Positions 3,803 to 46,325 of a DNA stretch of 64,000 bases are shown here, in pieces. The notes beneath the pieces were generated by a model. That model was not told where the DNA came from and ran no database searches. It was given only the letters and a program-made list of their open reading frames with translations. Source of the stretch: Punctularia strigosozonata HHB-11173 SS5 (lineage: Eukaryota; Basidiomycota; Agaricomycetes; Corticiales; Punctulariaceae); assembly GCF_000264995.1 (NCBI RefSeq), contig NW_006767438.1:1178310-1242309 (forward strand). Direction: 5' to 3'. The position numbers were made by a program, and so were the translations under genes. Position 1 is the first letter of the stretch, and the number at the start of each line of letters is the position of its first letter.

Positions 3803-4910
3803 CTACTTCTGACGAAGCGAAGCAAACCTCTCCTTGAACACCTTCGTCACGTACGGCTGTGTGCCAATGAGTCAGTGTGAAGGATACGGCGTCATTGACA
3901 AGACGACATGCCTCGTCCCAAGTCTTGATGAAGCTAGGTCTGGCCTTGAGATCCTGCACGTATTGATTGTAACGCGCGAACTGGGGCCCAGACAGGGCCT
4001 CGAGAACTTTTTTGCTCTCGCCCTCCGGATAGGCTCCGAGATCGTTGTCCAACACCACGCTCAGACGGGCAAGGAACTGCAAGATATCTCGTCATCAGAG
4101 AACTCTCCGAAACGAGATTTTGAACAAAGCCTCACAGGTAAGATTGCGATATCAGCGGCGGTGAAGTCATCCCCAACTGCGTATTTCTTGTCTTGAGGGA
4201 GAAGAGACTGGATCGCCTCGATCCCCTTCAGGAACGACTCGTACGACTCGCCCTTGCGAAGCCAGGCGTTGTACGCCGGCAGGAGCTTGTTGGATACTGC
4301 GTCGATGAAAAACCGCGCTTTGGCCCGAAGGACAGGATCCGAGGGCAGACTGCCGGACTGTGGGTACAGGTCCGCGACGAACTCAACCAGGATCAGCGAC
4401 TCGGCGAGCTTCACCGACTCGGGCGATGGCTGGTCTGCGGGGACCTTCGGTCCTCCATAGGCTATAGCGGGTACCTGCCCGAGGAGGACAAGGTGATCAG
4501 CGAACGTGCATTCCAGCAGCTCGTGACGACATACCTTGCTGGCCGGGTTGACCTTGGGCGCGTACCATTCCGGCTTGTTCTGCAGATCAATCTCGTATCG
4601 TTCGTACTCCGCACCGGCTTCTTCGAGGGCGATCTCAGTCTATGAGACGCCGTCAGCGTTTAAGCTTTCATACGGAATGCGTACCGAACGATGACGCTCC
4701 TCGTGGGGGCACTCCCGCGCTTGCAGGCTGCTCGCATGAGGGGGGCCGTCATCGGTCGCACATGCACGCCTACCCTGTGTGCGTATGGACAGATCTACAG
4801 TTATGCAGTACGCCACAGGGGTGACACTTGAAGTCAGTTTCCATATCTTATAGATCAAAGGGCCTGAGGTGCGTTACCTTTGCGGTATAGAGGGTGATAT
4901 GTTCAGGCAT
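3803..4910 (-). CDS. Fungal glutathione S-transferase (five or six exons)
   Basis: A cytosolic glutathione transferase that joins glutathione to electrophiles. The start gives MPEHITLYTAK, the first thioredoxin-fold strand. Later exons give TEIALEEAGAEYERYEIDLQ, NKPEWYAPKVNPASK, VPAIAYGGPKVPADQPSPES with LAESLILVEFVADLYP (GSH-binding site and start of the helical domain), then YAVGDDFTAADIAILP (C-terminal N-capping motif), FLARLSVVLDNDLGAYPEG and YVTKVFKERFASLRQK before the stop. Good donors and acceptors join these blocks. The exon that should carry the active-site Cys is best placed at 4685-4711 (27 nt, CPHEERHRS), in phase on both sides, but this is tentative. It converges with the flavin reductase gene. 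Class is close to fungal GSTs of the Ure2-like/GTE groups. Confidence 0.82.
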
Positions 4911-43086: not shown

Positions 43087-44418
43087 TCAAGGAAGCCCCC
43101 TTCCAGCATTGATCGCGTTCGCCACTTGACTCGTGTTCGGGCGGTTGAACGCATACCTATCGCGGGGCCCATCGATATATCTCAGCGCGCCGTTTCACTA
43201 AGAATACCCCGACCTGAAACTAACCTTTCGTAGCTATCAATGTACAGTTCCCTCGTGCTGCACGTCTGCGCGAACGCGGGGTGCGCGAATAGCCGTTCCA
43301 GCCACGCTCTGAACCTCGTCCCCTGCGGCATCTCGAACCCGCGGTACTCGTGGAGAACGTTGGTCGCACGGAAGAGCCCTTTTGATCCCGTCCCGTCAGC
43401 CGCATCACCACCGGCAAACAGAGGGAGGGAAGGGGGGGGGACTCACAGGGCCCGGCTAGAGCATCCGTCCAGCCCAAGTCGCCGCCTTCTTTCCATAAGC
43501 CCAGCGCCGGCTGCGACTCGGAAGGGGTCTCGCGCTCGGTGCGTTCCAGGATTTTGACCAGGTCTTCGAGCGCCGCGTGGAACTCTTTGCCGTGCTCGAT
43601 CTGTCTGTCGATATCTTGGGCTTGCAAGAATCGGTAGAATGCAGGCACGAGCGTGCGCGAGACGTGGTCGGCCTGAAGACGGACGAGCGCGCGTGCGTCT
43701 ATAAACGGGAGGCATCAAGGGACGTTGATATAGATGGCCAGCGTCAGATCCGCGGGGGGGGGGACCGAGAATGGATAAGGGAGGCGTACAGGGATCCGAG
43801 AGGGGAGGAAGTAACGATCGCCCGGTCTCGTTCGCGGCCAACCTACACAGGAGTAAAAACGACCGTGGTTTAGCAATGTGAACGGGGCCTGAGCGGAAGG
43901 ATGCGATACGCACTCCTCGAGGTATTCGAGGATGACCGTACTTTCGTTCAGGGCCCGCGGCGGGTCGTAGGCGTTCAGCCTCAGCCCGGGTACGAGACCC
44001 TTGGGCGAGACTTCGAGCAGGTCGGCCGGCTTCTCGTACGGATCGACTTCGTCTGTGCGCGCAGATGCGTGAGTCACGATGGAGAAGAGCCGCATTCCGT
44101 GCAACCGACGGACAGTACTGATATTCACGAAGGTCGCTCCGATGAGTGCGTTACGATGCGTATAGAACGGCTATGGCTCGCCTGGTAGTCGATGCCCAGG
44201 TATTCGAACGCGACCTGGACCCAGTCGATCTGATCAATCGTCGGGAGCGAATGTAAATCGATATAACCTGTACCCAGACACGCTGCACGAAGGGACAGAA
44301 ACAGCTTCCGAACAGCACGATGCCCGTGCTCGCAGGCGCGATGTCTCTCCGCAGTCTGGAGCGCGAGCCCCGTCGCTTTTTCGTGATACTTCTTCCCCGT
44401 GTCTTTCGTCTGCGTCAT
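43087..44418 (-). CDS. Omega-like glutathione transferase, copy 1 (apparent N-terminal frameshift)
   Basis: The active-site exon reads ASTGIVLFGSCFCPFVQRVW, with a Cys-Pro-Phe site as in omega-class transferases (thiol transfer and reductive deglutathionylation). Then VAFEYLGIDYQ, a 4-nt microexon, YEVDPYEKPADLLEVSPKGL with VPGLRLNAYDPPRALNESTV and ILEYLEE (GSH-binding core), FYRFLQAQDIDRQIEHGKEF and LGLWKEGGDLGWTDALAGP in the helical domain, FAQTCSTRELYIDSYER, and the last exon YAFNRPNTSQVANAINAGRG ending in LP-stop (43087-43089). Upstream, EKATGLALQTAERHR matches copy 2 (ATGVALLTTERHS) but sits in another frame, so a one-base shift near 44331-44342 separates the start from the active-site exon. 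It may be a sequence error or early decay. Head to tail with copy 2. Confidence 0.8.
44053..44181 (-). other. GC-AG intron, 4-nt microexon and GT-AG intron in transferase copy 1
   Basis: After DYQ the donor is CAG|GCGAGC. The intron 44118-44181 (64 nt) ends in atatcag. The microexon TACT occupies 44114-44117. The second intron 44053-44113 (61 nt) has a GTCCGT donor, a TGACTCAC branch region and a GCACAG acceptor. The joined peptide is DYQYYEVDPYEKP, the expected family sequence. No simple two-exon joining keeps the frame. Confidence 0.7.
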
Positions 44419-44870
44419 CGTAGCAAGGCCCTGGTGTTCAACGGCGAGGGTTCGAACACGAGGAGATGGCGTTTGAGGGAAGGAGATGTGGGAGATTCGT
44501 CAGGGTCAAGATGCGGGACAAAGGGGGCAGTATCTTTGCAATAGGCATGGGCCATCGTGGTGACCTTGCCCTTTGTTCTGTTATGTTAACTTAGCAGCTC
44601 GGCAAGAGGACGATGACGTCATCAAGGAGCAACTGCTCTTCAGATCTCCAGAGGGCTTCGGAGTTCTCGTAGTGCCTTGTGGCCAACCATGATCACGATA
44701 GCTCATACCCCAATCGGTGCTCAACATCTATATACACTTCCCACATTCATCGACATCAACACAGTGCGATCGGAGAGGCGGTCATAAGGATATCCTGGAA
44801 GTCCAAGGTCATTCTTGAACTTCCGAGGACATCTTTAGAGGCGTCGTGTCCGCGTCGTACACGGCGGCTC
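44419..44870. other. Spacer between the two transferase genes
   Basis: About 0.45 kb between the start of copy 1 and the extended end of copy 2. No element was recognised. Confidence 0.35.
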
Positions 44871-46325
44871 TCATGACCGGCGATGAGAGGCTTTCCATCC
44901 TGACGGCATCACGGTTCGCAGGATCTGAGCGCACCGACCCCACGATCCCATGGCTCTGGCCAAAGGCAGTCTTCTCTTAACGTTAATTAGATTCACCACA
45001 TGATTGTTCGAGCGGTTCAGCGCATGCCTATCACAGAGGCTCGTCTCAGTGTTTGGTTACAAGGCAGCGAGGTCCGGAAGGAGAGGGGAACACATACCTC
45101 TCGTAGTATTCGATGTACAGCTTCCTCGAGCTGCACGTCCGCGCGAACGCGGGATGCTTGAACAGCCGCTCTAGCCACGCGGTAAACCTGGCGTCCCGCG
45201 GCATCTCGAACGCGCGGTACTCTTTGAGGACGCGACTCGCTCGGAACAGCCCTTCGGATAAAACACGTCGGCGTCAGTCGGTTGTCTTCCGAAAGCGCGC
45301 GGCCGGGGGGGGGGAGAGAGGAACGGGTCTTACAGGGCCCTGCCAGAGCATCCGTCCAGCCCAGATCGCCGCCTTCCTTCCACAACCCGAGCGCACGCTG
45401 CGACTCGGCGGGGCCCCCGGCCGTCTCCCGCTCGGAGCGATACATCATATCGATCAGATCTTCGAGCGCCGCACGGAATTCCTTGCCGTGCATGATCTGC
45501 ACGATGGGGTCTTGGGCCTGCAGGAAGCGGTAGAAGGCAGGCACCAGCGTGCGCGAGACATGGTCTGCTTGGATGCGCACGAGAGCGCGAGCGTCTATAG
45601 ACAGGGTCGTCGACGTGGTCAGCACCACGGGCATCATGGAGAGCGTATGCAAGTCGAACTGCGTACAGGGAGAAGATAGGGGAGGCAGCAGAGATCGGTG
45701 GGTCGTGTTCGCCGCCAACCTGGTGGAAATAACAGTATCGTCAGCGTCGAGTTTCTCTGATGCCTGATAGAGAGACCGCAAAGCGTACTCTTCGAGGTAA
45801 TCGAGAATGATCGCGTTCTCGTTCAACGTGCGCGGCGGGTCATAAGCGTCGAGTCTCAGCCCAGGTACGAGGCGCCTTGGCGAAACTTGGAGCAGATCGG
45901 ACAGTCTTTCGTCTGGTTCGACTTCCACTGTGGACGAGACGTTCGAGTCAGTGTGTGTCCGTGACCCATGCTTGTACATACGGACCGTACTGGGCAGTGC
46001 CACGTTCCAAACATGAGAACGTTACACTTGTATAGAAAAAAGAAAACGAGCTTGCCTGGTAGTCAATCCCCAGGTACTCCAGGGCAACCTATCACCCAAG
46101 ATCGATCAGCGGACTTTCTCGTATCGAGGTTGGGCATCGCAGACGCACCCATATGCGCTGCGTAAACGGGCAGAAGCAGTTCCCTAACAGCACGATACCC
46201 GTGTCGGTCGGCATAGAGTGCCTCTCCGTCGTTAGAAGCGCGACCCCGGTTGCGTGGTAGTAGTCCTTCTGCCCCGTCATGGGTTCGATTTGAGATAGGG
46301 TCGAAGAGGTATCTGTGTTGGCCAT
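44871..46325 (-). CDS. Omega-like glutathione transferase, copy 2 (extended C-terminus)
   Basis: Paralogue of copy 1 with an uninterrupted start: ATGVALLTTERHSMPTDTGI, then VLLGNCFCPFTQRIW (catalytic Cys-Pro-Phe), VALEYLGIDYQ, a 4-nt microexon, VEVEPDERLSDLLQVSPRRL with VPGLRLDAYDPPRTLNENAI and ILDYLEEYA, VPAFYRFLQAQDPIVQIMHG, LGLWKEGGDLGWTDALAGP, RASRVLKEYRAFEMPRDARF and CSSRKLYIEYYER. The last exon reads HALNRSNNHVVNLINVKRRL. Where copy 1 stops right after LP, copy 2 reads on with a Leu codon and continues for about 30 residues to a TGA at 44871-44873, so the normal stop seems lost. If the last intron is retained, translation would instead end at 45017. Likely roles are thiol transfer and detoxification in the cytosol. 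Confidence 0.8.
45928..46055 (-). other. GC-AG intron, 4-nt microexon and GT-AG intron in transferase copy 2
   Basis: After DYQ the donor is CAG|GCAAGC. The intron 45990-46055 (66 nt) ends in gcccag. The microexon TACG is 45986-45989. The second intron 45928-45985 (58 nt) has a GTCCGT donor, a CACTGACTC branch region and a TCCACAG acceptor. The joined peptide is DYQYVEVEPDERL. The layout equals that of copy 1, although the intron sequences have diverged. Confidence 0.7.

Follow-up and report, generated by a model that had tools for sequence, protein, structure and literature searches.

Two tandem glutathione transferase genes on the minus strand, which we take by class to be omega-like, very probably each contain an internal exon of just four bases, TACT in gene 1 and TACG in gene 2, placed between a GC-AG intron and a GT-AG intron. 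The pair lies in a 64,000-nt stretch of DNA (hereafter the window, G000:C6:1178310-1242309), part of a 33.57-Mb genome in 32 contigs. Intron style and relatives suggest that this genome is fungal, probably that of a basidiomycete. Several lines of evidence point to the four-base exon: the protein that it predicts ranks first in family match in each gene, its length equals that of homologues continuous at this site, and the bases around it are the best conserved stretch of the interval between the paralogues.

Layout of the two genes and their relatives

Both genes were modelled with eight exons and seven introns at matching places. In each, the order is GACTACCAG, GC-AG intron, TACT or TACG, GT-AG intron and GAAGTCGA, and the coordinates that an earlier note on this DNA had given for the two introns and the four bases are exact in both genes. 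The features, in window positions, are as follows.

43087..44418, minus strand: gene 1, omega-like glutathione transferase, eight exons modelled, frame shifted by a net 2 nt inside exon 1
44274-44418, minus strand: gene 1, deficit region of exon 1
44182..44214, minus strand: gene 1, exon 2, 33 nt, ending in GACTACCAG
44118..44181, minus strand: gene 1, GC-AG intron, 64 nt, donor GCGAGC, acceptor CAG (GCGAGC...ATCAG)
44114..44117, minus strand: gene 1, proposed four-base exon TACT
44053..44113, minus strand: gene 1, GT-AG intron, 61 nt, donor GTCCGT (GTCCGT...CACAG)
43914..44052, minus strand: gene 1, exon 4
44871..46325, minus strand: gene 2, omega-like glutathione transferase, eight exons modelled, 325 residues
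46056..46088, minus strand: gene 2, exon 2, 33 nt, ending in GACTACCAG
45990..46055, minus strand: gene 2, GC-AG intron, 66 nt, donor GCAAGC, acceptor CAG (GCAAGC...CCCAG)
45986..45989, minus strand: gene 2, proposed four-base exon TACG
45928..45985, minus strand: gene 2, GT-AG intron, 58 nt, donor GTCCGT (GTCCGT...CACAG)
45789..45927, minus strand: gene 2, exon 4

With the four bases included, the predicted mRNA of gene 1 is GACTACCAG-TACT-ACGAAGTC (44182 / 44117-44114 / 44052) and that of gene 2 is GACTACCAG-TACG-TGGAAGTC (46056 / 45989-45986 / 45927), giving the joined readings YLGIDYQYYEVDPYEKP and YLGIDYQYVEVEPDERL, respectively. The GC introns start at CAG / GCGAGC and CAG / GCAAGC, the acceptors are CAG, and the four bases, a length far short of 30 nt, stand between an AG acceptor and a GT donor in the contexts AG-TACT-GTCCGT and AG-TACG-GTCCGT. 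Branch-like motifs, found with a loose pattern whose matches carry no chance estimate, lie 25 nt (gene 1) and 24 nt (gene 2) from the end of the GC intron (CTCAT in both), and 17 nt (CTCAC, gene 1) and 20 nt (CTGAC, gene 2) from the end of the GT intron. GC-AG introns of the U2 type are defined by an AG / GCRAG donor, a YAG acceptor, a branch motif and a normal length; the GC introns of both genes, at 64 and 66 nt, fit this description. A GC donor with C at position +6 is sub-optimal. Overall, the introns here measure 58-66 nt, and the other ten introns of the two genes 59-91 nt.

The GST N-terminal domain and a CPF/CPY motif are present in both proteins, the latter read from the sequence as FCPF[VT]QR and presumably catalytic. 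The profile PF13417 (GST_N_3; cut-off 22 bits) matched gene 2 with 54.2 bits and gene 1, from TGIV onward, with 72.7 bits, while GST_C_2 reached 20.2 bits in gene 1, against a cut-off of 24.9, and had no listed match in gene 2. From TGIV onward, 251 codons of the two genes align; over these, protein identity is 76%, and the pairwise values are dS 0.88, dN 0.16 and dN/dS 0.18. The best solved chain was PDB 6srb (84 bits, E 1.2e-22), for which the query was a preliminary, approximate gene 1 model. It has the same domain and an equal residue count from the FCP.VQR motif through GIPYQYKEVNPY, bar two surplus residues in the query; its similarity is moderate and, as a protein sequence, it is uninformative on gene structure. 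In the glutathione transferase fold, the site of the four-base exon should lie in the second beta-strand.

Searches of the same genome, which score only their best candidates, returned among these 2 matches to a 58-residue query, 17 to PF13417, 5 to a C-terminal query and 9 to a query from L010, a third omega-like GST of this genome. No further gene with the four-base-exon layout was seen in the N-terminal region of most matched loci, which were read by eye and non-systematically. Three of these loci (L010, L040 and L038) are continuous at the site, and a fourth, L043, is readable as a C-terminal piece only. Eleven relatives came from the 45 stretches of a bacterial scan and served for length and residue preference; one of them, L028, carries one additional residue directly after the site. 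There were no relatives among the 14 stretches of a viral-contig scan.

Some of these loci have peculiarities of their own. L010 contains an in-frame TAG between ATGLALKTVEAH and DPQDLVFYAGW (locus 1404-1406; G000:C10, about 1160308), near the position of the frame change in gene 1, and is open downstream over the stretch read. About 13 kb from it, L043 (G000:C10:1173808 region) is an omega-like C-terminal piece with no N-terminal part readable nearby by eye, and it may be a partial copy. L040 (locus 1172-1192, G000:C6, 862780 region) and L038 (in the window, minus strand, match at about 4136-4414) are two further omega-like GSTs, and both show by eye an apparent 21-nt exon coding ICPYAHR, including the CPY motif, flanked by two short introns. 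Gene 2 itself extends 30 residues beyond the end of gene 1 (GRGLP-stop versus RRLPLARAMGSW...; window 44871-45027, minus strand), which suggests a lost stop codon or an additional intron.

Conservation between the paralogues and the state of gene 1

We ran 20,000 dinucleotide shuffles per interval. The arrangement AG-TAYN-GT, with neither intron shorter than 45 nt, occurred in 66 shuffles of gene 1, in 155 of gene 2 and in none of the 20,000 for both genes together. Frame-keeping microexons of any kind (1, 4, 7, 10 or 13 nt) were frequent (6,095 and 8,542 of 20,000), so frame alone was dropped as proof, and the argument rests instead on the Tyr codon, the homologues and the paralogue. Between the two genes, the block CAGTAC[TG]GTCCGT is identical at 12 of 13 positions, a level matched by 5 of 5,000 shuffled pairs, and no other 13-base stretch of the interval is as well conserved. 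As a control, the remaining five intron pairs in these genes were searched over wider offsets, yet reached 8-10 of 13. Over their whole length, the two introns are conserved no better than the others: freely gapped alignments gave identities of 36/59 and 30/55 here and of 32/69 to 43/68 for the other five pairs. The statement that intron sequence has diverged is thus right overall.

Given that the layout is common to both tandem paralogues, a comparison that consists of this one pair, and that their dS is about 0.88, the proposal that it predates the duplication holds up well. The second half of that proposal, that the layout has since been kept, is weakened by a frame offset in gene 1. Compared with its counterpart in gene 2, exon 1 lacks a net 2 nt in the part that separates the conserved segments ATGLALQTAERH and STGIVLFG, and these two consequently lie in different frames. 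Gene 1 may be a broken gene, may contain an assembly error at exon 1 or may have a differently built 5' end. Because of the offset, its splice sites may have escaped selection and, if the gene is broken, its four-base exon reflects shared ancestry and not present selection.

The alternative that fares best accepts the four-base exon and contests only its maintenance: the layout would be ancestral and spliced as proposed, gene 1 would now be a pseudogene, and the pair would testify to common descent and not to continued selection. We regard this as a serious possibility, a little short of even. It would account for the 2-nt offset, and it agrees with the finding that the downstream frame of gene 1 has no ATG before the upstream stop. 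Against it, gene 1 is open from TGIV to its end through all modelled exons, and the low dN/dS reported above speaks for constraint, even if a pairwise ratio is blind to whether this is past or present; the offset could also stem from a faulty assembly or from an alternative 5' end.

Frame-keeping alternatives to the proposed four-base exon

We enumerated all models that joined a fixed point in exon 2 to one in exon 4 in frame and without a stop. They could contain up to two introns of the GT-AG, GC-AG or AT-AC type, each at least 40 nt long and, where there were two, no longer than 110 nt. These limits left 138 models for gene 1 (27 with no intron or one, 111 with two) and 127 for gene 2 (35 and 92, respectively). 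The idea that the genes can only be joined in frame through a four-base exon hence fails. What sets this exon apart is family fit. Scored with BLOSUM against two fungal homologues continuous at the site (6srb and L010), the four-base model ranked first in both genes, with 102 against 95 for the runner-up in gene 1 and 78 against 70 in gene 2. Its length is that of the homologues continuous at the site, namely GIPYQYKEVNPY in 6srb and NIPYQYKEVNPY in L010 and, by eye, GAEYEKYQIDL in L040 and GAEYERYEIDL in L038. A point against the model is that, across these four fungal references, the first-position residue is Tyr only in 6srb and L010; it is Lys in L040 and Arg in L038.

Models restricted to GT-AG introns were rejected, their best family scores being 82 (gene 1) and 57 (gene 2), and AT-AC combinations were likewise discarded on family score, including one gene 1 model with a splice score of 11.4 against 8.8 but a family score of 80. 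Stwintrons are introns inside introns, with no intervening bases retained in the mRNA. Such an arrangement was also rejected, as joining exon 2 to exon 4 loses the frame and reaches a stop after 34 codons in both genes.

The runner-up in both genes dispenses with the microexon and removes the interval as a single GC-AG intron whose donor lies 4 nt downstream.

44177-44053, minus strand: gene 1, alternative single intron, 125 nt
46051-45928, minus strand: gene 2, alternative single intron, 124 nt

This joins 44178 to 44052 and 46052 to 45927, with GACTACCAGGCGA-ACGAAG or GACTACCAGGCAA-TGGAAG as predicted mRNA and DYQANEV or DYQAMEV as protein. Frame and length are kept in both genes, and the four-base model leads by a modest 7-8 BLOSUM points. 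Its lead in profile scores is also small: GST_N_3 gave 72.7 bits for the microexon, 70.8 for the single intron and 65.3 for the best GT-AG-only model in gene 1, and 54.2 and 50.6 for the first two in gene 2 (differences of only 1.9 and 3.6 bits), and GST_N_2 separated them by only 1.0 and 2.4 bits. However, the Ala that the single intron places at the site occurs, by eye, in none of the four references and none of the 11 bacterial relatives; the donor hexamers required (GCCATA and GCTCGT) differ between the genes; the splice scores are -2.9 and 3.5; the intron would be longer than any of the other ten; and the conserved CAGTAC?GTCCGT block would be left unexplained. A single intron in both genes is therefore very unlikely.

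The least probable of the alternatives, which we consider highly improbable, has the GC "intron" of gene 2 translated as 22 more residues and the 58-nt GT-AG intron alone removed, gene 1 being a broken copy: the 66 nt are indeed divisible by three, stop-free and in frame, their donor is GC and gene 1 does have its frame offset, but retention lowers GST_N_3 to 42.8 bits in gene 2, aligned homologues have no such insertion, the corresponding 64 nt of gene 1 contain a stop, and an intron that is open and divisible by three is nothing unusual in a fungus, the share in PMC7072748 being 13.3% for GC-AG introns and 9.2% for GT-AG introns.

Predicted splicing, precedents and significance

Each of the two introns flanking the four bases carries its own donor, branch-like motif and acceptor. 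On the simplest reading, the coding sequence of each gene is interrupted by two ordinary short U2 introns with four bases between them. From the sequence, its coordinates, frame, family fit and conservation, we infer that the U2 spliceosome would take out the 64/66-nt GC-AG and the 61/58-nt GT-AG introns, whichever goes first, and that TACT or TACG would stay in the mRNA as a constitutive four-base exon. The Tyr codon following DYQ would consist of the first three of these bases, and the fourth would open the next codon (Tyr or Val). If the exon were skipped, translation of either gene would stop 34 codons after exon 2 begins; since four is not a multiple of three and skipping leads to this stop, selection on the enzyme would be expected to keep the exon. 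Constitutive inclusion is expected, and regulated use is possible. A stronger version, in which the four bases behind a weak GC donor act as a conserved on/off switch older than the duplication, seems very unlikely to us. In that event, inclusion would yield the enzyme, skipping would yield a truncated product and presumably mRNA decay, and retention of the GC intron in gene 2 would yield the form with 22 more residues.

The closest precedent is found in the CYP621A P450 genes of Fusarium, whose 1-nt exon is confirmed in two species by RNA reads (Nelson and Syed 2026, PMC12940212). It shares several features with the genes described here: an ultra-short fungal exon flanked by two short introns; a deduction from neighbouring exons that do not fit together in the reading frame of the family; an intronless relative as length marker; a place in a conserved motif; and an interval that, at 139 nt overall, exceeds twice the length of a median intron. 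The two cases differ in exon size (1 nt versus 4) and in boundaries, which are AG and GT in CYP621A, with GC-AG introns unmentioned in the text of PMC12940212; they also differ in that the four-base exon is a prediction from sequence. In basidiomycetous yeasts, GC-AG borders flank microexons in bglA (beta-glycosidase) genes, a different family, in which the shortest exons are 5 and 6 bp; section 16 of that article leaves unstated whether these particular exons adjoin GC-AG introns (PMC9142197). P450 genes of Phanerochaete chrysosporium, likewise a multigene family of a white-rot basidiomycete with many tiny exons and small introns, have exons down to 6 bp, and CYP63 members have conserved GT/AG junctions (PMC1184071).

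GC-AG introns account for 1.85% of introns in Ganoderma lingzhi (PMC11590231) and 1.72% in Coriolopsis trogii (PMC13395996). In both species, as here, the non-canonical introns concerned belong to the commonest non-canonical class, and some non-canonical sites have been confirmed experimentally, whereas the words microexon and micro-exon are absent from the text of either paper. No microexon in an omega-like GST gene is described in the titles and abstract beginnings of the open-licence papers that literature searches returned; in passages of PMC3990503, PMC4986451 and PMC8022950, the microexons mentioned are either an option for read mapping or those of a different family. In the light of the bglA borders (PMC9142197) and the 1-nt exon (PMC12940212), the rarity that the earlier note attached to a tiny exon with a GC donor was overstated: the combination is uncommon, yet already in print. 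The present case adds a pair of duplicates that share one such predicted exon, four bases long, downstream of a GC donor.

As a shorter exon and the GC-AG combination have both been published, the general picture of the capacity of fungal splicing is unchanged. Gene finders and read aligners often bar GC donors. They are also prone to overlooking exons so short (PMC12940212), and genes with such exons are therefore easily mis-annotated. For the minimum exon size in fungal splicing, the duplicated pair would provide a clean test.
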